NCBI RefSeq assembly: GCF_018100795.1
Contig: NZ_JAGJDY010000003.1
Span: 310,001 to 374,000, forward strand
Direction of reading: 5' to 3'
Source of the DNA: Alteromonas sp. MMG017
GTDB lineage: Bacteria; Pseudomonadota; Gammaproteobacteria; Enterobacterales; Alteromonadaceae
DNA length: 64,000 bases
Position 1 is the first letter of the stretch. Each line of letters starts with the position of its first letter. The position numbers and the translations under genes were made by a program. Under the pieces are notes generated by a model. It saw only the letters and a program-made list of their open reading frames with translations, had not been told where the DNA came from and did not search any database. Below, piece by piece: positions 25,805 through 48,449 of the stretch.

Positions 25805-25856
25805 CTCGCTAAACCTGAACACACTCGCTATTTATTAGGCACTTAAGCTATACTCC

Positions 25857-26060
25857 TTCGCGCTTAGGTGCCCATCTATGGGTTAAACGGGAAATCAGTG
25901 AAATCTGATGCTGCCCCCGCAACGGTAAACTCAGTGTGAACACACACATTCTCCTTAACACGCCACTGTGTCATCGGTATTAATGTCGCGACATGGGAAG
26001 GCAGAGAAACCATACACAGTATTGGTGAGTGAGCCCGGATACCGGCCTAACTTCACGGCA
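25857..26060 (+). ncRNA. cobalamin (AdoCbl) riboswitch
   Basis: The leader of btuB contains the conserved core GGGAAATCAGTGAAATC, then GATGCTGCCCCCGCAACGGT, and further on the B12-box-like GCCCGGATACCGGCC near 26033-26047. These elements occur in the order and spacing of cobalamin riboswitches. It should repress btuB when cobalamin is plentiful, probably by sequestering the ribosome-binding site, since no terminator U-tract is seen before the start codon. Boundaries are approximate. Confidence 0.95.
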
Positions 26061-26116
26061 GTTATTCTGCTTACATTCACCCTTGTACTCGGGCGGAGTA
26101 CATAGCGAGAAATACA

Positions 26117-28042
26117 ATGAAATTTCAAACACACTTTACCTGCACTGCAGTTTACGCTGCCGTGGCAACACTGCTGTCTGCACCTGTTTTAGCGCAAACT
26201 CCTGACACCATAGAAACACTTACCGTTACTGGCACCCGTTTACCTGTACAAATAGCTAAGCTGCCTGCATCGGTAAGCGTATTAACCGAGCAAGATATTC
26301 AAGCCTCAGGCGCTGTACAACTTACCGATTTAATTCGTGGCCTACCTGGCGTAAGCCTTTCCCAATCTGGTAGCCCAGGCGGCCTTACCGAAGTTCGTGT
26401 TCGAGGCAGCGAAAGTAACCACTTACTCGTGCTTATTGATGGCGTGGTGTCTAACGATATTGGCCAAGGAAGCTTGATAGACTTGGCCCACTTAACCTCG
26501 GCTAACGTGGTACGTATAGAGCTACTACGTGGCCCGCAAAGTGCCTTATGGGGCAGTGGTGCAATTGGTGGTGTATTGAGTATCACCACCAAAGCAGGTG
26601 AAGGAGCCAGTGCAAAACCTAGCATTAATTTAAGTGCGGGAATAGGCACACAAGGTACTTACCAAGGCAGCATTAATGCCGCCACGCAAAATGGCGATGT
26701 GGCTGTACGCACCTATGCCAATTACCTAAAAACAGATGGCGATAACATTTCCCGCGTGGGTAATGAAGATGACGGTTATGACAACATGACCGCAGGCATC
26801 AACGTTGATTACGCATTGGCTGATGCTCACACGTTAAGTGCGAAATTTCGCAGCACCCAATACGAAAATGATTACGATGGTACTGACTATGCCATCACTG
26901 GGTTACCTGCTGATGCCGACAATGTGACTGATGGTAGCCAGCTTAGTACTAAACTAGCTTGGCGCTACGCGCCAGATGCATCGGCCTATGCGTCTACCAT
27001 GTCTTTCGATTACCGAAAAGACGACAATGACAATACCACATCAGGTGCCGATGCTGGTGGTACCACGGGTGAGCGCTTAGCCCTAAATTGGACAAGTTTT
27101 TACAACTTTGATAACTGGCAAGTAGCGGGTGGTGCTGAATACTTACAACGTTTGTTTGAACAACGTGGCCCTGTTGTATTTGGCGATCCGAATCAAAAAC
27201 AGCACGACAATACGACCAGCTTATTTGGTGAAGCCACTGGTGACCTCGTTGATAATGTTTTTGCGACTTTAAGCGCACGGTTCGACAACAACAGTGAATT
27301 TGATGACGCCGTTAGTTATCGCGCAGGCCTAACGTGGCAAGTATCAAAAACCTATGCGCTATTTTCAAGCTACGGTAAGGCGATTAAAACCCCAACCTTT
27401 ACTGAGCGATTTGGCTATTTCCCAGATAGCTTTATTGGTAACCCAGACTTAACGCCCGAAGAGAGTGAAGAGTGGGAAGTTGGCGTAAAAGCAAATTGGG
27501 ATTCGGTTACCGCACAAATGAGTGCTTATAGCGCCCAACTTGAAGACGAAATTAATGGCTTCGTTTATGACGCCACCCAAGGCGTGTACACCGCTGCCAA
27601 TGTAGATGGTGAAAGTAGTCGTGATGGCGTAGACGTTGAAGTAACTTGGCTTAGCGATTTAGCGAAGGTGTCGGCGTCTTATAGCTATTTAGACGCTGAC
27701 CAAACCAGTTTTGGCATTGCCAGCACAGAGCTTCGCCGTGCACGTCATCAAGGCGCATTGTCGGTATTGTCTGATTTAGGTACCGAGAAATTTAGCCTTT
27801 ATGCAAAATTGGCCTATACCGGCACCCATTACGATACTTACTTCCCTCCCTACCCTGCTAATGCAGAAACCTTAGGACTGTCAGCTTATACCCTAGCGTC
27901 AGTTAACCTTGGCTATCAAGTTTCTGAAAAGTGGGCATTATCATTAAAAGTGAATAACCTTTTTGATACTGACTACGAGGATATCGTGGGCTATGCAGGA
28001 CAAGAACGACGTGCATTGCTATCGGTGAGCTACAGCTACTAG
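26117..28042 (+). CDS. btuB: TonB-dependent vitamin B12 receptor
   Basis: Outer-membrane cobalamin transporter of 641 residues. It has a signal peptide cleaved after APVLA, a TonB-box-like segment DTIETLTVTGTR, and a plug domain with LTDLIRGLPGV, VRVRGSESNHLLVLIDG and RIELLRGPQSALWGSGAIGG. A 22-strand-type barrel ends in VSYSY, acceptable for outer-membrane insertion. The cobalamin riboswitch directly upstream secures the BtuB assignment. The BtuCDF inner-membrane system is not nearby. Confidence 0.96.
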   Translation: MKFQTHFTCTAVYAAVATLLSAPVLAQTPDTIETLTVTGTRLPVQIAKLPASVSVLTEQDIQASGAVQLTDLIRGLPGVSLSQSGSPGGLTEVRVRGSESNHLLVLIDGVVSNDIGQGSLIDLAHLTSANVVRIELLRGPQSALWGSGAIGGVLSITTKAGEGASAKPSINLSAGIGTQGTYQGSINAATQNGDVAVRTYANYLKTDGDNISRVGNEDDGYDNMTAGINVDYALADAHTLSAKFRSTQYENDYDGTDYAITGLPADADNVTDGSQLSTKLAWRYAPDASAYASTMSFDYRKDDNDNTTSGADAGGTTGERLALNWTSFYNFDNWQVAGGAEYLQRLFEQRGPVVFGDPNQKQHDNTTSLFGEATGDLVDNVFATLSARFDNNSEFDDAVSYRAGLTWQVSKTYALFSSYGKAIKTPTFTERFGYFPDSFIGNPDLTPEESEEWEVGVKANWDSVTAQMSAYSAQLEDEINGFVYDATQGVYTAANVDGESSRDGVDVEVTWLSDLAKVSASYSYLDADQTSFGIASTELRRARHQGALSVLSDLGTEKFSLYAKLAYTGTHYDTYFPPYPANAETLGLSAYTLASVNLGYQVSEKWALSLKVNNLFDTDYEDIVGYAGQERRALLSVSYSY

Positions 28043-29808: not shown

Positions 29809-31089
29809 TTAAAAACGCGTACTTGCCCACACCCATAACTTATTGGCGTCTACTTTGATATCACCAGCTGAGTAGCTACCATACTTCACCGCAAGAGTGA
29901 CCTTATCCACCACTTTAGTCACGTACTGTACGTTAATTTCGCTACCTAAATCATCTACCTCCGCTGTGGCTTCATCGGCACTAAAATCATGATAGGCCAG
30001 CAACCATTTACCTCCAGCTAATTTTCCGGATAAAGAGAAAGTAACATCTTGAAGACCTTGTGCAGGTGTACCTAAGAATTGATCTGTCCACCCGTTAAAT
30101 TTATGCAGGGTGGCCAGTGGCGTGGCAAAACCATATGCACCATCGTCAGAGCCTAACAACTCATAATCAATCTTTGCGGTAATACCTGAAAAGGTAGCTG
30201 CAAGGTTTGCATTAATGTAGCTAGCATCATAGTCGGTAGCGGTTTCACCAGAGCCTGACTCACTGCTTTGCGTAGCAAATTCAGCGCCGTATGCCCAATT
30301 CACTGTCTCACCTTTCATGCTTCCGTTGTAGCGAATACCGTAGGTATCAAGCGCATTGTCGGTGTCATTATCAATTTCTAATAAATAACCATAAGCGGTA
30401 AATTTTCCTACCGCGGTTTTGAAGCTCGCGTTGAATAAATGATCTTTTGAATCAAAATCAGCGGCTTGTGCAAAAATTCGATTTCGCTGGGTAAGGTATC
30501 CATAAAAGAAATTCACTTTCTCGTTAAGCGCATAGGTAGCAGTTACACCATCGAAGGTCTGCCTATCTTGACGCCACCCCACATGTCCAACAAACCTGTG
30601 ATTATCGAGGGCAATTACTTGTCTGCCCCCTTTGAGTGTTAGCTTTTCATTTTTGTACTGAATAAAAGCTTGATCCACTTCGGTGGTTTCAGGGTCTGCA
30701 ATCACTGAATACTCACCTACGTTATAACCTGTAGGGCCTACTGTATAATCGCCTTGCCCCATAACAATGCGGCTATCTTCCACTTCTGCGGTAAAAGAAA
30801 ATCCATTTAACGTACCCGATTTAAAACCTAAGCGAGTACGAAGCGTTAATGCACTGGCGTCATCAAGCGCATTATCTTGGTCGACTGATTCATAACGTAA
30901 GTTCAAGTCTGCCCATGCAGAGGCTTCGCTTAATACATCGTGCCAACTTTGGGCAAACGATGGCGCACTGAAACATGCCAACATAGCGCTTGTCAGTGCT
31001 GCTTTTGCAAAGCGCTTCTGTACCGGTTTACATCTATTTGTTGGTGCTTCTGTTAGCTGGGCTGATGGTTTTATATCTTGCGTATTCAT
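29809..31089 (-). CDS. porin (alginate-export-type barrel) at the nitrate transport locus
   Basis: A 426-residue outer-membrane beta-barrel protein. A long, basic N-terminal extension precedes the signal core AALTSAMLACFSAPSFA; MNTQDIKPSAQ may be added in front of the true start, but no clear internal ATG is present. Strand-rich repeats and the C-terminal WVWASTRF (final Phe) support a barrel. It resembles porins of the alginate export superfamily. It lies 170 bases downstream of nrtC on the same strand and is the likely outer-membrane entry for nitrate in this operon, which is inference from position. Confidence 0.82.
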   Translation of the reverse strand: MNTQDIKPSAQLTEAPTNRCKPVQKRFAKAALTSAMLACFSAPSFAQSWHDVLSEASAWADLNLRYESVDQDNALDDASALTLRTRLGFKSGTLNGFSFTAEVEDSRIVMGQGDYTVGPTGYNVGEYSVIADPETTEVDQAFIQYKNEKLTLKGGRQVIALDNHRFVGHVGWRQDRQTFDGVTATYALNEKVNFFYGYLTQRNRIFAQAADFDSKDHLFNASFKTAVGKFTAYGYLLEIDNDTDNALDTYGIRYNGSMKGETVNWAYGAEFATQSSESGSGETATDYDASYINANLAATFSGITAKIDYELLGSDDGAYGFATPLATLHKFNGWTDQFLGTPAQGLQDVTFSLSGKLAGGKWLLAYHDFSADEATAEVDDLGSEINVQYVTKVVDKVTLAVKYGSYSAGDIKVDANKLWVWASTRF

Positions 31090-34605: not shown

Positions 34606-34653
34606 AAAAAAAAACCCACCAGCGTAGACGAATAAACGTCGCGCTTGGTGGGC
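34606..34653 (-). terminator. leader terminator (attenuator) of the nrtA operon
   Basis: On the minus strand, GGTGGG/CCCACC pairing (34647-34652 with 34615-34620) continues as CGCT/AGCG with one bulge and GACG/CGTC, closing a 6-base loop (UUUAUU). Nine U residues follow (34606-34614), then nrtA begins. A full intrinsic terminator inside a 5' leader implies conditional antitermination. The NasR-like ANTAR protein at 47.1-48.4 kb is the obvious candidate. Confidence 0.85.
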
Positions 34654-34664
34654 TTCGATGCCGA

Positions 34665-34695
34665 GCCTGTAATCATTAGTTAATGAAATACAGGC
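34665..34695 (-). ncRNA. upstream hairpin of the nrtA leader
   Basis: GCCTGTA/TACAGGC (7 bp) closes a second stem formed by UCAUU/AAUGA, just upstream of the leader terminator. Two successive hairpins are the arrangement recognised by ANTAR antiterminators. The loop I read (UAACUA, or a smaller AACU) does not match the A1/G4 hexaloop rule, so its recognition by NasR is not assured. Confidence 0.55.
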
Positions 34696-35035: not shown

Positions 35036-36352
35036 TTACAGCCGTTGGGTGAATTGACCAATGGCGTTCACTACTTCTGAAGATCCATTTTGAATTTCGT
35101 TCATGACTTTGCCCGACTCGGTCGAGTATTCAAGCGCTTCTCTCGCTTTTTCCTGACCAGCCTCAATGAGTTGCACCGCATTTTCTGTGAGCTTTCTGTT
35201 TTCATTTACCACACTGACAATTTCTTCAGTGGCTGTACTGGTTCTGGATGCAAGTTGGCGCACTTCATCAGCAACAACGGCAAAACCTCTTCCTTGATCC
35301 CCCGCTCTGGCGGCTTCAATTGCCGCATTCAGCGCCAATAAGTTAGTTTGGTCGGCAATACCACTGATGCTTTTAACTAAGTCGGCCACTTTTTGCGACT
35401 GTTCGTCAAGCTCTCGAATACCCTCGCTCGCCGTTCCCATCTGCGAAGTAAGCTCACCCATAATTCGCACCATGCTACCCACAACCTCTTTACCTTTCTG
35501 GGCTTGCTCTCCCGTACCTTGTGAAATATTAAAAGCAACATTAGCGGCCTCAGAAATAGCAAACTCTCTCTGCATTTGTTCGGTTATGACGGTGGCAAAC
35601 TTAACGACTTTGTACAGTATGCCCTTGTCGTTTCGTATTGGGTTGTAAGATGCCTCTAGCCACACTTCATTACCGCGACTATCTACTCGCTTAAAGCGGT
35701 CTGAAAACATTTTGCCTTGCGAAAGATCGCTCCAAAATTGTCGGTATTCTGGCGTGTCGACTTCATCTGCGGAGCAAAATATCTTGTGGTGCTTACCCAC
35801 TATTTGCTCTGATGAATAGCCCATAGAAGATAAGAAGTTATCGTTGGCTTTAAGAATAATACCTGTGAGGTCAAACTCAATTACCGCAGTGGAGCGATGC
35901 AAAGCCTCAAGCATGTCTTTCATCTCACGGCTTCGATTAATATTTCTCGTTTGTTCAGCCATATACAAGGCGAGTCGGTCGACCACACCGCTGTCATTAA
36001 GGATGGGTTGCAATATTCCTCTAAACCAACGGTCTTCGCCATTCGCATTAGCAAGATTAATCGCACCATGCCAATGCTGCGCTTGCTTAATAGCAGAAAG
36101 AAACTCCTTCGTGGCGGCTTGGCTCATGACTCCCTGAGGAATGAGACTATCCATGGTTTTTCCATCAAGTTCATTGGATGAAAAACTTATAGCATCTGCA
36201 AAGCCGTCGTTAATTCTATTGATTCTGCCGTTTCTGTCTAATTCAACATAAAGCATTTCTGCCCTGAGTTCGCTTTCTACCGTGTGAAATGATTCAACAT
36301 CTTTGCGTAAACGTTCTACTTCTTCTAACAATTGCTTATTCTTAAAAAACAT
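35036..36352 (-). CDS. soluble PAS-PAS methyl-accepting chemoreceptor (BdlA-like)
   Basis: A 438-residue chemoreceptor without membrane helices. The ATG at 36352 ([15 protein letters not shown]) has GAGGAG upstream and is preferred over one 13 codons earlier with a weak site. A short coiled coil leads into PAS 1 (about 30-140) and PAS 2 (about 150-255). PAS 2 contains [16 protein letters not shown] and [11 protein letters not shown], features of the Aer/BdlA heme- or redox-sensing group. A compact signalling domain follows with [20 protein letters not shown]. It lies between the two nitrate operons, so a role in redox or nitrate-linked taxis is possible but unproven. Confidence 0.9.
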
Positions 36353-36551
36353 CCCGTGCTCCTCGACATTCGGGTATAGCATCTCGCTCACACAAACTTC
36401 TCATATCGTTTATGAGAGCGAGCGAGGATACAAAGTCGTTATTGCTTTAGTTGGCTGATCTAAAGATAGCAGATGATTTACAAGTTACTTAATTATTGGA
36501 GAAATTTGAAAATGAATTGATTAATAGGCAACAGCATTAGACACAAATGGC

Positions 36552-37547
36552 CTAATGCTGGGCAAATGGAAGTGTAGTTTTATCTCGTTTTGCCCACATT
36601 TGTGTGGCAAGCGTATTCGCTTTTTCTACGTCACACCCTTCAAGTAAAATAAGGTAGCTCACCAGCGTAGCGTGAATAGCTTGTTCACCGTAAAGATGCG
36701 AAGCCTCGCCTCGCCAAACCGCCAGCATATCGTTTACGTTCATTTGGGTATCTTTAAGAGCCATTTTTTCTGTTAACTCAGGAAGAATGATTTCTTCTGT
36801 ACTTCCATTGCGCGTGACATAGAGCTCGGTTTTTCGCTCACTGTTTACTTCGGGGTCTCCCCCATCACCACGAAAACAAAGCGCTTCAAACGCGGGAAAA
36901 CTTTCATTCACGCGGCAATGCTTATGGTCAAGGTGCATGTGATAAACACCCTGTACACAAAAAGGAGCCGACGTTGGGTTTAGTAAGCGCGCCAAGGTGT
37001 TTGCGCATGAGCGCAGCCCAAACACTTCACGTAATTTAATGATGGTATTAAGCGCTGGTAATAAATGCGATAAGTCGAGATAGGTAGCACCAAATTCACA
37101 CATTTGGCGAGATGCATCGGAAATACTATTTACTTCTACAAGCCCCAAAGCCGGTAACGCTTTACTAGCATATAACCGACCAGAGCCTGGCTCATGAGCG
37201 CCATGTAGCATAACGGTATAGTTGTTTTTAGCCAGCACCGCGCACGATAGCAGATACCAAGGTAACTGGCGGCGCTTACCGGCATAGCAGCCCACGTCTA
37301 ACGTAGGTGTTAATTCAGCAAGTTCAGGCTCTAGTAATTCACGGCATGCATCAATAAACCCAATAACTTCTTCTGGGGTTTCTTCTCTCGTGCGTAAGAG
37401 CATTAAAAAAGCGCCGCGTTGATCGCCGGTAACCTGATTAGACAATACCATTTTCATAGACTCGTAAGCTTCTTGACGGGTAAGACTGCGCCCACCTTTT
37501 TGGCCCTTGCCTATGATTTTTATATAGTTGCTAAATTGCTGAGACAT
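36552..37547 (-). CDS. ybiB: TrpD2/YbiB-type glycosyltransferase-like protein
   Basis: A 331-residue homologue of anthranilate phosphoribosyltransferase of the TrpD2 (YbiB) branch, which binds nucleic acid rather than making tryptophan precursors in E. coli. The fold begins with a helical domain (TRQEAYESMKMVLSNQVTGDQRGAFLM) and then DVGCYAGKRRQLPWYL, where the catalytic glycine-rich loop of true TrpD is altered. It overlaps the end of cobA by 17 bases and is the last gene of the nitrate/nitrite reductase operon. Its role there is unknown. Confidence 0.85.
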   Translation of the reverse strand: MSQQFSNYIKIIGKGQKGGRSLTRQEAYESMKMVLSNQVTGDQRGAFLMLLRTREETPEEVIGFIDACRELLEPELAELTPTLDVGCYAGKRRQLPWYLLSCAVLAKNNYTVMLHGAHEPGSGRLYASKALPALGLVEVNSISDASRQMCEFGATYLDLSHLLPALNTIIKLREVFGLRSCANTLARLLNPTSAPFCVQGVYHMHLDHKHCRVNESFPAFEALCFRGDGGDPEVNSERKTELYVTRNGSTEEIILPELTEKMALKDTQMNVNDMLAVWRGEASHLYGEQAIHATLVSYLILLEGCDVEKANTLATQMWAKRDKTTLPFAQH

Positions 37548-41748: not shown

Positions 41749-44298
41749 TTAAATTACGTCAACCGCAATGAGATTGTCGGCACCTTTAGACTTTTCCATT
41801 TCAGTGGCAGGTCTAACTTGGCCTCGTTCAGATACAAATTGTATGTTTGTATCTGTGCCATCTGTGTTAACGAATTGACGGAAACGTTTGCGGGATGCTT
41901 CGCTTTCAAGGGTAGTTTTCCACTCACATTGATAAGCACCAACCACGGTTTCCATTTGGGCTTCTAAGTCTGCGTTTATGTTGAGCGAGTCATTCATAAC
42001 AACATCCTGAAGGTAAGCTAACCCCCCTTCTAAGTTGTCCATCCACACCGATGTACGTTGAAGCCTATCGGCAGTGCGTACATAGAACATCAATACACGG
42101 TCGATGTATTTAACCAGCGTTTCTGTATCTAAATCGGTAGCGAATAAATCGGCATGACGAGGTTTCATACCGCCGTTTCCGCACACGTATAAGTTCCAGC
42201 CATTTTCGGTAGCAATAACACCAATATCTTTACTTTGTGCTTCTGCACATTCTCGGGTACAGCCGGAAACGCCGAATTTAATTTTGTGCGGTGCCCGTAG
42301 GCCTTTGTAACGGTTCTCTAAATCGATTGCGGTTTTTACCGAATCTTGCACCCCGTAACGACACCACGTGCTACCTACACAAGATTTCACCGTACGAAGG
42401 GCTTTAGCGTATGCATGGCCGGTTTCAAAGCCGCCTTTAACGAGAGCCTCCCAAATATCAGGCAGTTGATCGACCCGCGCGCCAAATAAATCAATACGCT
42501 GACCGCCGGTTATTTTGGTATACAAGCTATATTTCTTGGCAACTTCGCCTAACAAAATAAGCTTCTCTGGGGTAATTTCTCCCCCCGCCACACGAGGAAC
42601 TACAGAATAAGTGCCGTCTTTTTGCATGTTACCAAGGTAAATATCGTTGGTATCTTGCAGAGGTAAATGCTCTTGTTTAAGTACGTAATCGTTGTACACA
42701 GAGGCTAAAATAGAGCCTGCTGCTGGCTTACATATTTCACAGCCAAGACCCGTACCATGCTTTTCGAGCAACTCGTCAAAAGAGGTAATGCCGTTCACTT
42801 TTACAATGTGAAATAGTTCTTGGCGGGTATGATTGAAATGCTCACAAATGGCTTTCGAGACTTCAACACCCCGTTTTTCAAGCTCGCTATCAACCACGTT
42901 TTTCAACAATGCGGTACACCCGCCACAGCCGGTACTGGCTTTCGTGCAACTTTTAACATCACCAAGGCTGCAACAGCCTTCGTCGATAGCCGAGACAATG
43001 TCGCTTTTGGCCACGTTATGACATGAACATATTGTTGCGGTATCTGGCAGTGCATCTGCACCTAACGCTGGCGCAGCACCAGCACTAGGCAAAATAAGCG
43101 TTTCAGGATTTTCCGGTAAATCAATGCCGTTTAAGGCATATTGCAACAAGGTATCGTAATCGCTGGTATCACCCACTAACACGGCACCTAACACTTTTTG
43201 TTGGCTTTCATCTACTACCAACTTTTTGTACACGCCTTCAGGCTGATTAAAGTAGGTGTAGCTTTGTGCGCCAGTGGTACGCTCGTGCGCATCGCCTATA
43301 GAGCCCACTTCCACGCCCATCAACTTGAGTTTAGTACTCATGTCGGCGCCGGTGAATACAGTATCACCACCTGTTAGCGAGCTTACTGCTGCGCGAGCCA
43401 TCGTGTAGCCAGGCGCAACCAAACCAAATATGCGGTTTTGCCACAGCGCACATTCGCCCACGGCGAAAATGTCAGGATCTGAGGTTAAGCAGTTGTCATC
43501 AACGACAATACCGCCACGCTCCCCTAGGGCTAGCATGGATTTTCTGGCGAGTTGATCTGATGGGCGAATACCTGCTGAAAACAGCACCATATCCGTTTCA
43601 AGAAAAGTACCGTCGGCAAATACCATGCGATAACGTGATTGCTCACCGGCTTCAATAACCTGTGTCGCTTTCTGGGTATGTACGGTTACCCCTAAGGATT
43701 CAATTTTACTGCGAAGTACGTCACCGCCGGTTTCGTCTAACTGCACTGCCATAAGCTGTGGCGCAAATTCCACCACATGGGTTTCAAGGCCGGCTTCTTT
43801 TAATGCGTTTGCCGCTTCAAGCCCCAATAATCCGCCACCCACTACCACACCCACTTTGCTTTCGCGGGCAGAGTTTTCAATCGCAATCAGGTCATCAATA
43901 GTGCGATACACTAAGCAGTGTTCTTGATCGTTTCCTGGAATAGGCGGAACAAACGGGTAAGACCCCGTGGCAAGAACCAACTTATCATAGGGAAACACCT
44001 GGCCATCTTCTGTTAACGCCTTTTTTTCGTCGCGCAGCAAGTCAGTCACTATGGCGTTGGTTACCACATTAACGCCCCACTCACGATATACATCAGCGGT
44101 TGTCAGCGCTAAATCATCTGCGCTAGCACCACTAAAGTAAGAGGACAAATGTACTCTATCGTAGGCCAGTCTCGACTCACCACACAGTACGGTGATATCA
44201 ACGTTATCGCTGCTTTGATGAAGCTGTTCAACAAAATGGTGCCCTACCATTCCGTTACCAACGACGAGAATTCGCGTTTTAGATGCCAAAGATGTCAT
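41749..44298 (-). CDS. nirB: nitrite reductase [NAD(P)H] large subunit
   Basis: Reduces nitrite to ammonium in the cytoplasm; 849 residues. An N-terminal FAD/NAD(P)H oxidoreductase (VVGNGMVGHHFVEQL; VVVGGGLLGLEAANAL) is followed by a BFD-type [2Fe-2S] domain (CSCHNVAKSDI, CTKASTGCGGC). The sulfite/nitrite reductase half binds siroheme and [4Fe-4S] through CVGSTWCRYG and SGCTRECAEAQSKD. It is first gene of nirB-nirD-nasA-cobA-ybiB, which supplies nitrate reduction, nitrite reduction and the siroheme precursor together. A terminator-like hairpin stands directly before the start codon. Confidence 0.97.
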   Translation of the reverse strand: MTSLASKTRILVVGNGMVGHHFVEQLHQSSDNVDITVLCGESRLAYDRVHLSSYFSGASADDLALTTADVYREWGVNVVTNAIVTDLLRDEKKALTEDGQVFPYDKLVLATGSYPFVPPIPGNDQEHCLVYRTIDDLIAIENSARESKVGVVVGGGLLGLEAANALKEAGLETHVVEFAPQLMAVQLDETGGDVLRSKIESLGVTVHTQKATQVIEAGEQSRYRMVFADGTFLETDMVLFSAGIRPSDQLARKSMLALGERGGIVVDDNCLTSDPDIFAVGECALWQNRIFGLVAPGYTMARAAVSSLTGGDTVFTGADMSTKLKLMGVEVGSIGDAHERTTGAQSYTYFNQPEGVYKKLVVDESQQKVLGAVLVGDTSDYDTLLQYALNGIDLPENPETLILPSAGAAPALGADALPDTATICSCHNVAKSDIVSAIDEGCCSLGDVKSCTKASTGCGGCTALLKNVVDSELEKRGVEVSKAICEHFNHTRQELFHIVKVNGITSFDELLEKHGTGLGCEICKPAAGSILASVYNDYVLKQEHLPLQDTNDIYLGNMQKDGTYSVVPRVAGGEITPEKLILLGEVAKKYSLYTKITGGQRIDLFGARVDQLPDIWEALVKGGFETGHAYAKALRTVKSCVGSTWCRYGVQDSVKTAIDLENRYKGLRAPHKIKFGVSGCTRECAEAQSKDIGVIATENGWNLYVCGNGGMKPRHADLFATDLDTETLVKYIDRVLMFYVRTADRLQRTSVWMDNLEGGLAYLQDVVMNDSLNINADLEAQMETVVGAYQCEWKTTLESEASRKRFRQFVNTDGTDTNIQFVSERGQVRPATEMEKSKGADNLIAVDVI

Positions 44299-44321
44299 GG
44301 TCTCTCCCCTTTATTCGGGAC

Positions 44322-44359
44322 AAAAAAAAGCCCGCATCAACTTTCGTTGTTGCGGGCTT
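44322..44359 (-). terminator. leader terminator (attenuator) of the nirB operon
   Basis: On the minus strand AGCCCGCA/TGCGGGCT (8 bp) plus CAAC/GTTG closes a GAAA tetraloop, followed by eight U residues and, about 23 bases later, the nirB start. It begins with the same CGAAGCCC sequence as the nrtA leader terminator. A complete intrinsic terminator in the leader implies regulated antitermination. Confidence 0.88.
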
Positions 44360-44374
44360 CGTTGCCTATCAAGC

Positions 44375-44392
44375 GCTACGAGTGATCGTAGC
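44375..44392 (-). ncRNA. upstream hairpin of the nirB leader
   Basis: GCTACG/CGTAGC (6 bp) with a hexanucleotide loop AUCACU on the transcript, 16 bases before the terminator stem. ANTAR target hairpins carry a hexaloop with A at position 1 and G at 4; here position 1 fits and position 4 is A. It is a candidate NasR recognition element. Confidence 0.6.
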
Positions 44393-44458
44393 TATCAAAT
44401 TTTTATGAGCTAGGTTGCTCTAAACATACACACACAGTATTTCACACAATTAAGTATA

Positions 44459-44475
44459 TCCAATATTAGTGCCAT
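44459..44475 (-). promoter_or_regulatory. probable sigma-54 promoter of the nirB operon
   Basis: The minus strand reads TGGCACTAATATTGGA: a perfect TGGCAC -24 block and TTG in the -12 block at the right distance, but GG where the normally invariant GC should be. Two NtrC-like sites about 65-115 bases upstream strengthen the call. Transcription would start near 44448. Confidence 0.6.
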
Positions 44476-44538
44476 GTCATTACAAGCCTGTTTTATATAG
44501 ATTTATTCAAAAACTAGGCTTTTCGAACCACCCTAATT

Positions 44539-44576
44539 TGCACCAAACAAAAGCATTTGCGATTTCATTTGGTGCA
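44539..44576. promoter_or_regulatory. two abutting NtrC-type sites upstream of nirB
   Basis: TGCACCA (44539-44545) and TGGTGCA (44570-44576) are perfect NtrC half-sites. They are the outer arms of two adjacent 19-base units, each made of 7 bases, 5 spacer bases and 7 bases: TGCACCA-N5-AAGCATT and TGCGATT-N5-TGGTGCA. Paired sites upstream of a sigma-54 element are the normal NtrC enhancer layout. Confidence 0.65.
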
Positions 44577-44651: not shown

Positions 44652-46217
44652 TTAAGCAAGTTTATCGGTAGCAACGCGATAACGTGGATCTTCATTCACG
44701 TTAATTTCTACAAACTTGTCTGCTTTACGCAGTAAGTTGCGACACTCATCACTGATATGGCGAATATGCAGCTTCTTACCTTGCTGTTCATATTTGTCAG
44801 CTAACGTGTCTAAGGCATCAATACCTGAAGAATCCCAAATTCTCGATTCTTTAAAGTCGATAACCACATGCTCAGGGTCATTGGCAATATCAAACAAGTC
44901 TTTGAAGTGACTAACTGAACCGAAGAACAAAGGCCCTTCTAAGTCATACACTTTCCAATCGTCGCTATCGATATGACTCTTAACTTCAATATGGCGAGCG
45001 TGCTTCCACGCAAATACCAAGGCAGAAACGATAACACCCACCACAACCGCAATCGCAAGGTCGGCAATGACCGTAACCGCGGTAACTAAGAATAGGACAA
45101 AAGCATCTTCTTTATTTACACCACGGATAATGCGGAACGATGCCCATTCAAAGGTAGCAATAACCACAACAAACATTACGCCAACCAATGCCGCTAGCGG
45201 AATCATTTCAATTAATGGTGCTGCAAAAAGGATAAAGGCAAGCAATACCAATGCCGCTGTAATACCAGATAAACGTCCACGACCACCAGAGTTAATGTTA
45301 ATCATACTCTGACCAATCATGGCACAACCGCCCATACCGCCAAAGAAGCCATTCACTGTATTCGCAACGCCCTGACCAACACATTCTTTGTTGCCACGGC
45401 CGCGGGTGTCTGTCATTTCATCAATAAGCGATAATGTAAGGAGTGACTCAATCAAGCCAACCAAACATAAAATGATTGAAGTAGGCAGAACAATCATCAC
45501 CGTTTCCCAAGTAAACGGTACCATCGGGATAGCAAAAGTGGGTAGTTCACCCGCTAGGGTAGCGCTCGCTTTTTGTGCTTCAGGCAGTAAATCACGCACG
45601 AAATCGATAACGGTACGCGCTTCTAAATCAAGCCCATGTACCATGGCAGTTACCGTAACAATAGCCACTAACGAGGCGGGCACTGCGGTAGTAAGCTTAG
45701 GCAGTAAGTAAATAATCGCCATGGTAAGCGCGACGAGCCCAAGCATCCAATACAACATAGACCCTTGCATCCACTCCAACTGACCTAGGGCATTCACTAC
45801 TTTGAATTGACCTAATTGGGCAAGGAAAATAACAATGGCTAAACCATTCACAAACCCTAGCATTACTGGGTATGGCACCAATCGTATGAACTTACCAAGC
45901 TTAAATACCCCACAGAGTATTTGCAGTAAGCCGGCTAATATAACGGCGGCAAACAGATATTGAACGCCATGCTGTGCCACTAGTGCCACCATGACCACGG
46001 CCATAGCACCTGTCGCACCAGAAATCATTCCTGGACGCCCGCCAATGGCTGACGTGATAAGTCCCATCATAAATGCGGCATACAACCCAATCATGGGCTC
46101 AACACCAGCAACAAATGCAAAAGCAACCGCTTCTGGTACCAGTGCTAGTGCAACGGTAATACCAGAAAGCACGTCATTTTTTACATTACTATCTCGATTA
46201 GTAATTAAATCAAACAT
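44652..46217 (-). CDS. SulP family inorganic anion transporter with STAS domain
   Basis: A 521-residue SLC26/SulP transporter. About 11-14 membrane helices begin with [18 protein letters not shown], the family opening. [21 protein letters not shown] segment lies near the substrate site, and a C-terminal STAS domain (about residues 410-510) contains [20 protein letters not shown]. SulP proteins carry sulfate, bicarbonate or other anions. The gene stands alone upstream of the nirB promoter region on the same strand and next to nasR, so nitrate or nitrite is possible; the sequence does not decide. Confidence 0.93.
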
Positions 46218-47084: not shown

Positions 47085-48449
47085 ATGCAAACAGACCATG
47101 AAATAACGTCCCCTACGCATTATAGCGATGCCACTAAGCGCTTCTTGCTCGCCGCCAAACGCGCCGAGATTACGGTGCTTGAGCAGCTATCCAGCAACTG
47201 CCGTATTGTTATTTCGGTTCGTAATATGGTGCATGCTCTGCAGCGCGAACGTGGTGCCACCAACATTTATTTAGCGTCTAAAGGTGATAGGTTTGCAGGG
47301 CAGCGCGCCACTCATATTGAAGCAAGCTGTGAAGCAGAATCGATGTTACGCAGTCAACTCAAGTCACTGTATTTAACCGATAGCCATGACACCGCTAACC
47401 CTCGTTTGTTAAGCAGCATTACCTTAGCGCTGCAAGGCATTGATTACCTGCCAGTACTTCGTGAACAAGCGAAAAATTTAACCCTGTCCCCGCTAGATTC
47501 CACTCGCGCCTATTGCCGCTTAGTCGCTGGGCTACTGACTGTTATTTTTGAAGCCGCTGACATTGCGAGCGACCCAGTGATAACCCGCCTTTTAGTTGCA
47601 CTTTTCAACTTTATGCAGGGTAAAGAATATGCGGGGCAAGAACGCGCATGGGGCGCTATTGGCTTTGCAGAAACGCACTTTGATAAGCGATTATGCGATA
47701 AACTCAGCGCCCTTCAACACGCCCAGCAGCATCACTTTACCGTGTTTAATGAATTCGCCCGTTCTTGTCATAAAGACGCTTACGAGCTTTTAGATGGCAG
47801 CCCTGCTGCACACGATATTAATCAATTGCGCAAAATGATTGCACAACTTGCTGATGGCAGCCCGATTGCGGCTGAAATTAGTGAAGTGTGGTTCGATGTG
47901 GCCACGCGGCGTATTGATGCCATGCAAGAAATTGAAAATAAACTGACCGACAGCTTAACTAAAGAAGCGCAAACTAAAGTCAGTAACGCGCATCATGAAA
48001 TGAAAAACCATCAACGGTTGATTGAAAGCTTTACCGATGAACATGCGCAAGATGGTTCACCCCTTACTATGCTGTTTGACCCTAGCATGCCTGGTTTGGT
48101 GGAAGACAGTGATCTTGGGCTGCTACAGCCTGATATAACTGGCTCGGGTAACAACGCAGATATTAGTGAGCAGACACAAACCCTGTCTGCGCATCGCTCA
48201 TTTTACGATTTGTTGCGAGGGCAAGCCCAGTATATTGAAGACATGAGTCGTGAGTTAGAAGAAGCGAAACGCGCTATTACCGAACACAAGTTAGTAGATA
48301 GAGCTAAACTCATTCTTATGCAGCAATTTCAATTAAATGAAAATGATGCATATCGAAAGCTACAAAAGCAGGCCATGAATGAGCATAAAAAACTTACCGA
48401 CATAGCCGCTACCGTTGTTGAAATATCAAATAGAGCGAACCAACGCTGA
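47085..48449 (+). CDS. nasR: NasR-type nitrate-responsive antiterminator (NIT-ANTAR)
   Basis: A soluble 454-residue regulator. The N-terminal nitrate- and nitrite-sensing (NIT) domain, about residues 40-300, is all-helical with VHALQRERGATNIYLAS, the family's first-helix signature, and the later FNFMQGKEYAGQERAWGA. A linker leads to a C-terminal ANTAR RNA-binding domain (about 385-450) with ITEHKLVDRAKLILMQQF and ENDAYRKLQKQAM. NasR of Klebsiella binds nitrate and suppresses a terminator in the nas operon leader. Here two nitrate operons, nrtABC and nirBD-nasA, have such leader terminators and are its likely targets. Confidence 0.92.
   Translation: MQTDHEITSPTHYSDATKRFLLAAKRAEITVLEQLSSNCRIVISVRNMVHALQRERGATNIYLASKGDRFAGQRATHIEASCEAESMLRSQLKSLYLTDSHDTANPRLLSSITLALQGIDYLPVLREQAKNLTLSPLDSTRAYCRLVAGLLTVIFEAADIASDPVITRLLVALFNFMQGKEYAGQERAWGAIGFAETHFDKRLCDKLSALQHAQQHHFTVFNEFARSCHKDAYELLDGSPAAHDINQLRKMIAQLADGSPIAAEISEVWFDVATRRIDAMQEIENKLTDSLTKEAQTKVSNAHHEMKNHQRLIESFTDEHAQDGSPLTMLFDPSMPGLVEDSDLGLLQPDITGSGNNADISEQTQTLSAHRSFYDLLRGQAQYIEDMSRELEEAKRAITEHKLVDRAKLILMQQFQLNENDAYRKLQKQAMNEHKKLTDIAATVVEISNRANQR

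Follow-up and report, generated by a model that had tools for sequence, protein, structure and literature searches.

We analyzed a stretch of 64,000 nucleotides from Alteromonas sp. MMG017, hereafter the window, with a focus on the leader (44322-44576, minus strand) that precedes nirB, the gene for the large subunit of nitrite reductase. All elements of this leader that a preliminary description had read from the letters are present, at or near the places where it had put them. The gene directly upstream of nirB, on the same strand, encodes a SulP-family transporter with a STAS domain (44652-46217). The features of the nirB leader, of the nrtA leader to which it is compared, and of the associated genes are the following.

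41749-44298, minus strand: nirB, nitrite reductase large subunit
44322-44357, minus strand: nirB intrinsic terminator (stem 44357-44330, T8 44329-44322), with a GCC in common with P2
44355-44366, minus strand: P2, ANTAR hexaloop GGC[AACGAA]GCC (A1, G4, C:G closing pair) on a 3-bp stem
44375-44392, minus strand: hairpin at the P1 position, GCTACG[ATCACT]CGTAGC, with A1 and no G4 in the loop
44407-44420, minus strand: extra small hairpin GAGC[AACCTA]GCTC, upstream of P1
44458-44474, minus strand: predicted sigma-54-type promoter of nirB, TGGCAC-TAATA-TTGGAT, with G at -12
44539-44555, minus strand: NtrC-like site 2, TGCTTTTGTTTGGTGCA, with a perfect outer half and a retained inner TGC
44560-44576, minus strand: NtrC-like site 1, TGCACCAAATGAAATCG, with a perfect outer half and a degenerate inner one (GCA to TCG)
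47085-48449, plus strand: NIT-ANTAR protein, NasR homologue, the proposed antiterminator, 2.8 kb from nirB
34606-34653, minus strand: terminator of the nrtA leader, with a GCC in common with the nrtA P2
34651-34662, minus strand: P2 of the nrtA leader, GGC[ATCGAA]GCC
34665-34695, minus strand: P1-position hairpin of the nrtA leader, lacking an ANNGNN hexaloop
34786-34802, minus strand: predicted sigma-54-type promoter of nrtA, TGGCAC-GAACT-CTGCTT, with C at -12

The RNA of region 44310-44460 folds with a z-score of -4.92, and 0/200 shuffles fold as well. Across the whole 4.7-Mb genome, the pattern of hexaloop plus terminator gives 3 rows at two places, nrtA and nirB, and none elsewhere, with 0 matches to the reversed pattern that served as control; the strict P2-plus-terminator pattern is found in 12/295 sampled genomes of the order, and its reversed control in none. 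The suggestion that nirB and nrtA have one leader design in common is borne out, in that both carry a P2 hexaloop overlapping a terminator and a predicted sigma-54-type promoter. None of the 4227 Rfam covariance models matches the leader at the gathering score or at E up to 10. In a search for further targets in the genome, GGCANNGAAGCCC gave 7 matches, of which only those at nirB and nrtA lead into a terminator. What is established here is the sequence, its conservation, the covariation of the terminator, and the gene content.

The P2 hexaloop and the terminator

A terminator was described as following the hairpin, with eight U residues before nirB, and the corresponding T8 indeed occupies 44329-44322. 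A relation between the nirB and nrtA terminator stems had been proposed from the occurrence of CGAAGCCC in both. This sequence is the 3' half of the ANTAR hexaloop, and it is common to the two leaders because in each of them P2 overlaps the 5' arm of the terminator. Within the genus, GGCANNGNNGCC with a T-run is present in 92/92 leaders (47 nirB and 45 nrtA), including 18 without a BLAST-placed gene start, in which the motif came from a scan of the sequence and was thereby selected for; in each of these 18, an ATG lies 68-82 nt downstream, and P2 is present in 74/74 leaders with a BLAST-located gene start. The form found in 75/92 of the genus leaders is GGCAACGAAGCC.

The P2 stem sequence is invariant in 28/28 distinct nirB cores and therefore provides no covariation evidence either way; this constancy is equally expected if selection acts only on the DNA or on the terminator. 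Outside the genus, nrtA P2 stems with both sides changed are found, namely, AGC/GCT in L028 and GAC/GTC in L046. For the terminator, the proposed covariation check gave a clear result: in the 28 distinct nirB rows, 94.5% of the cells are paired and 7/11 pairs are changed on both sides, and the covariation score of 0.434 is reached by 0/500 shuffles, with slid controls at 0.02-0.07. In the folding model, P2 and the terminator are mutually exclusive, and forcing P2 costs 8.9 kcal/mol in nirB and 3.2 in nrtA, a cost that fits the need for a bound protein.

The hairpin at the P1 position

The "hexaloop hairpin" that had been noted upstream of the terminator exists as a hairpin but not as a canonical ANTAR loop, G4 being absent; moreover, the folding program joins the first A and the last U of the ATCACT loop into a further pair, which yields 7 bp and a 4-nt loop. 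In the close relative L002, the loop of this hairpin is AAAACT. No ANNGNN hairpin is present in the 70 nt before P2 in either the nirB or the nrtA leader of the window, even with stems down to 2 bp.

For counts across the relatives, P1 was defined by a stem of at least 4 that ends within 16 nt of P2, and a canonical loop by ANNGNN. The canonical loop is found in 3/37 distinct nirB leaders of the genus (0.7 expected from shuffles) and in 2/39 distinct nrtA leaders (0.6 expected), for a genus total of 5/76, and in 0/4 NasR-type leaders of other genera. The NasT-type rows, defined by an ANTAR match without a long NasR match within the locus sequence, have it in 11/20 cases (0.5 expected); because the nirB leader of L019 is matched twice, the extra row lying 146 nt from the gene, 11/19 is the fairer figure. 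In rows without ANTAR in the locus, the count is 2/12 (0.3 expected). Twenty-one NasR rows stand outside this count: the window's two (which are in the genus set), thirteen from L002-L009, L044, L059, L060 (two), L071, L072 and L079; when such rows were retested, with the window excluded, the canonical loop appeared in 1/20 (L005). With a C:G closing pair and stems of at least 3, a canonical P1 is found in 1/37 nirB, 1/39 nrtA and 10/20 NasT-type rows. The two canonical P1 loops among the nrtA leaders of the genus are AACGTA in L151, the clearest, and AGTGAT in L155.

A hairpin of some kind (stem of at least 5) lies near P2 in 30/37 distinct nirB leaders (17.9 expected) and in 37/39 distinct nrtA leaders (19.3 expected). 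Given that hairpin counts exceed chance and the canonical loop is rare, the hairpin tends to persist and the ANTAR loop does not. These observations bear on the possibility that P1 still functions as a genuine ANTAR hairpin, the Alteromonas NasR having relaxed its demands on the loop; the leader would then be an ordinary dual-hairpin one. This explanation draws support from the excess of hairpins near P2 over shuffles, from the 5/76 leaders that do have an ANNGNN P1, and from the loosest rule for the P1 loop, under which 10/37 nirB leaders qualify vs 4.9 expected; however, the loops of the best hairpins at this position range from 3 to 12 nt and have no base in common, the same loosest rule gives 2/39 vs 4.5 expected in nrtA, and counts with C:G closing are near chance in both sets. 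We consider relaxed recognition quite possible, although we lean against it. By the reading in which P2 is the hexaloop that matters, the P1-position hairpin without an A1/G4 loop is probably a partner with a structural role, or one that is recognised weakly.

The covariation check that had been proposed for this hairpin, in addition to the terminator, yields a thin signal: 2/9 pairs in 6 distinct rows of an nrtA subgroup, a pair count that is reached by 124/500 shuffles and a covariation score reached by 11/500; the nirB P1 hairpins are too gappy in the alignment for pair counts across subgroups. A canonical P1 elsewhere in the leader was also sought: the window has none, and the relatives are near chance under C:G closing, with the loosest-rule excess in nirB keeping some room for it.

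The leaders of relatives contain another block, ACAATTT, single-stranded in appearance, just upstream of the P1 hairpin, some 25-45 nt before P2. It is found in 9/48 representative leaders, where the best 7-mer in 100 shuffles reaches a mean of 4.4 and a maximum of 7; at this position, the nirB leader of the window has AAAAATTTG. The stem of the GAGC hairpin upstream of P1 recurs in L084-L088 and L100, with other loops in L087, L088 and L100.

The NtrC-like sites and the predicted promoter

In the upstream part of the leader, TGCACCA (44576-44570) and TGGTGCA (44545-44539) bound a 38-bp stretch that had been divided into two adjacent 19-base units. The half-sites and the arithmetic of that division are right, but the relatives favour 17-mers of the form TGC-N11-GCA. 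The centres of the window's 17-mers are 21 bp apart, in a register read by eye; since the inner TGC appears, also by eye, to be kept, the sites are best described as two TGC-N11-GCA-like 17-mers, 19-21 bp apart in the genus. Allowing up to 2 mismatches in all, TGCACCA/TGGTGCA halves 29-31 bp apart and 99-102 bp from the -24 box are present in 39/47 nirB leaders of the genus; six leaders (L108, L123, L124, L126-L128) have one short dyad instead, and two (L121, L125) have neither the pair nor the short dyad.

Full dyads of the same half-site precede glnA and glnK in the same genome, the one at glnA being some 3.5 kb away from ntrC; only these two places were used from the genome-wide dyad scan, which is unspecific (83 matches per strand, 47 in the control). 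Binding of some regulator other than NtrC to the inverted half-sites seems unlikely. Such a regulator would be in keeping with the fact that neither nirB unit is a full NtrC dyad and with the distance of 31 bp between the halves, start to start, yet the full dyads at glnA and glnK and the single short dyad in the same region of six other nirB leaders of the genus speak against it. That NtrC binds the half-sites is what we infer.

Downstream of the half-sites, the TGGCAC-N5-TTGGA element is found as described, at 44474-44459. It has the TGGCAC and the spacing of the sigma-54 consensus, with the C at -12 replaced by G. A match to TGGCAY-N5-NTGN lies 78-175 nt before P2 in 47/47 nirB leaders of the genus, with varied spacers; in three of these (L114, L116, L122), a higher-scoring -24/-12-like match exists elsewhere, and the one counted is that 78-175 nt before P2. 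The -12 base in the 47 leaders is G in 22, T in 16, A in 7 and C in 2. The glnK promoter of the same genome reads TGGCAC-ATCTC-TTGG, and among 30 glnK loci of the genus (glnK is present in 59/59 genomes) the -12 base is G in 23, T in 6, A in 1 and C in 0. By comparison, glnA (TCGCTT) and nrtA (CTGCTT) of this genome have C at -12; the best-scoring nrtA match has C in 30/45 leaders of the genus and, because the match score favours C, this count indicates that C is usual in nrtA, not universal. In E. coli, as tabulated in the available part of PMC4591121, the -12 base of 50 intergenic sigma-54 sites is C in 43, T in 4, A in 3 and G in 0. The replacement of GC by GG that had been flagged as unusual for sigma-54 is real, and the doubt it raised about sigma-54 is eased by conservation (22/47 nirB, 23/30 glnK). 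Both rpoN and ntrC are present in the genome.

A sigma-70 start in the leader, the competing case raised in the preliminary description, has a lone match, ATGACA-16-TATACT, at chance level (1 found, 1.1 expected). That transcription starts there and the -24/-12-like element is unused is very unlikely: the match overlaps that element, whose -12 base is off consensus, yet TGGCAY and TTG are constant while the 5-bp spacer and TATACT vary, and the sigma-70-like -10 differs in L087, L088 and L100, where TTGGAT stays.

The NasR homologue and a proposed two-input gate

The open reading frame at 47085-48449 (plus strand) contains NIT (1.7e-50) and ANTAR (6.1e-17) domains and matches the solved NasR of K. 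oxytoca (4AKK) at 8.8e-36. The search of the genome found no other ANTAR gene; no NCBIfam model matches the protein. Among the 59 genomes of the genus, 47 have nirB and 46 have ANTAR, which is present in 46/47 genomes with nirB and in 0/12 without it; the exception, G053, is a 590-contig draft with nirB and no ANTAR match. In Marinobacter, the leaders L060, L071 and L079 (nirB) and L059, L060 and L072 (nrtA) have GGCANNGGCGCC hexaloops, and these lie beside a weakly matching NasR-like protein (about 29-33% identity) with no separate ANTAR match. It is highly improbable that the leader is a plain terminator that insulates nirB, with CGAAGCCC in nrtA a coincidence or a copied piece: the strong terminator and the same-strand SulP-family gene upstream fit insulation, yet GGCANNGNNGCC is constant in 92/92 leaders where the terminator stem varies freely, and ANTAR presence tracks nirB.

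The nirB leader is very probably an attenuator that works by NasR-type antitermination and follows an NtrC/sigma-54 promoter, an arrangement of the kind known from Klebsiella nasF. Like that system, in the available text of PMC7496416 and PMC3369931, it combines a NIT-ANTAR protein with nitrate or nitrite assimilation genes and a C:G-closed A1/G4 hexaloop that overlaps the terminator. Unlike nasF, which in the same excerpts has two canonical hexaloops, P2 alone is canonical here, the gate would also act at nrtA, and nasR is a neighbour of nirB on the opposite strand. As read from sequence, the departures from the known kind are the non-canonical P1 and the conserved non-consensus -12 base.

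The EutV-dependent eut leaders also have two hexaloops with A1/G4 loops and P2 within the terminator; the two-component phosphorylation input, the ethanolamine genes and the canonical state of both hexaloops, as given in the accessible parts of PMC3369931 and PMC8934654, set them apart. The predicted promoter resembles NtrC/sigma-54 promoters such as that of E. coli glnA in the TGGCAC box and in NtrC-like half-sites about 110 bp upstream; unlike these, as covered in the excerpt of PMC4591121, nirB has two half-degenerate NtrC-like sites where they have full ones, and G at -12. Our searches of open-licence literature brought up no paper about this leader in Alteromonas, and NasR is not mentioned in the portions available of PMC12388587 and PMC8749424.

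NasS-NasT nitrate leaders reportedly have an ANTAR hexaloop overlapping the terminator before nitrate genes, an overlap that recurs here, and NasT-type relatives in our set often have both hexaloops. Unlike in those systems, the sole ANTAR protein of this genome is of the NIT-ANTAR type, and NasS-NasT as the regulator is rejected on this ground.

We propose, with considerable confidence, that nitrite reduction is under a two-input gate at nirB (NtrC/sigma-54 promoter plus NasR antitermination), in which the promoter would respond to nitrogen status and the RNA to nitrate. When nitrogen is limiting, NtrC would bind some 110 bp before the start and activate sigma-54 polymerase at TGGCAC-N5-TTGGAT, a step suggested by the conservation of the NtrC-like and promoter sites. 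When nitrate and nitrite are absent, the RNA would fold the terminator and transcription would end before nirB; when either is present, the NasR homologue would bind the P2 hexaloop GGC[AACGAA]GCC and, P2 and the terminator sharing the GCC, NasR-bound P2 would prevent the terminator, so that nirB is transcribed. This second step is drawn from the anatomy, the conservation and the known NasR system, and nrtA would be under the same gate. Activation by NtrC, binding of NasR and nitrate-dependent read-through at nirB are thus what we infer. Against the gate stand the missing canonical P1 loop, together with the weaker binding of P2 alone by the K. oxytoca NasR, the off-consensus -12 base, the G053 genome, with nirB and without ANTAR, the other possible causes of the constant P2 stem, and the lack of an NCBIfam match for the NasR homologue.

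A more specific reading, close to an even call and offered tentatively, is that the NasR of Alteromonas, and perhaps of other NasR-bearing relatives, has come to need P2 only, P1 being reduced to a structural hairpin, and that nirB and glnK have a class of sigma-54 promoters with a conserved -12 G. The RNA element of ANTAR proteins is described as a hexaloop with A1 and G4 in the excerpted text of Ramesh et al. 2012 (PMC3369931), and selection with K. oxytoca NasR returned the same element (part of PMC7496416); according to the latter, the affinity of K. oxytoca NasR for P2 alone is about 12-fold below that for P1P2, and a single hexaloop is argued to be the minimal binding motif in the available section of the EutV-RNA structure paper (PMC8934654). 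The single-hexaloop and the relaxed-loop readings may both be compatible with the P1 data. The dozens of leaders in which P2 is constant and P1 drifts form a natural test of the number of hexaloops, one or two, that an ANTAR protein requires, and the conserved -12 G promoters a natural series for the reading of the -12 element by sigma-54. According to the portion of PMC8749424 consulted, mutation of nirB deprives Alteromonas macleodii EZ55 of the use of both nitrate and nitrite, and in three-member cultures the mutant has ceased to restrain Synechococcus; a gate on nirB and nrtA, if true, would tell when such bacteria compete for nitrate.

The nitrate gene cluster of the window also includes, on the minus strand, a chemoreceptor-like protein with PAS and MCP-signal domains (35036-36391), a glycosyltransferase-family-3-like gene (36552-37547) and an Alginate_exp porin-like gene (29809-31089). 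On the plus strand, a Cobalamin riboswitch (Rfam RF00174, 88.3 bits) at 25849-26064 precedes a 641-aa open reading frame at 26117-28042.
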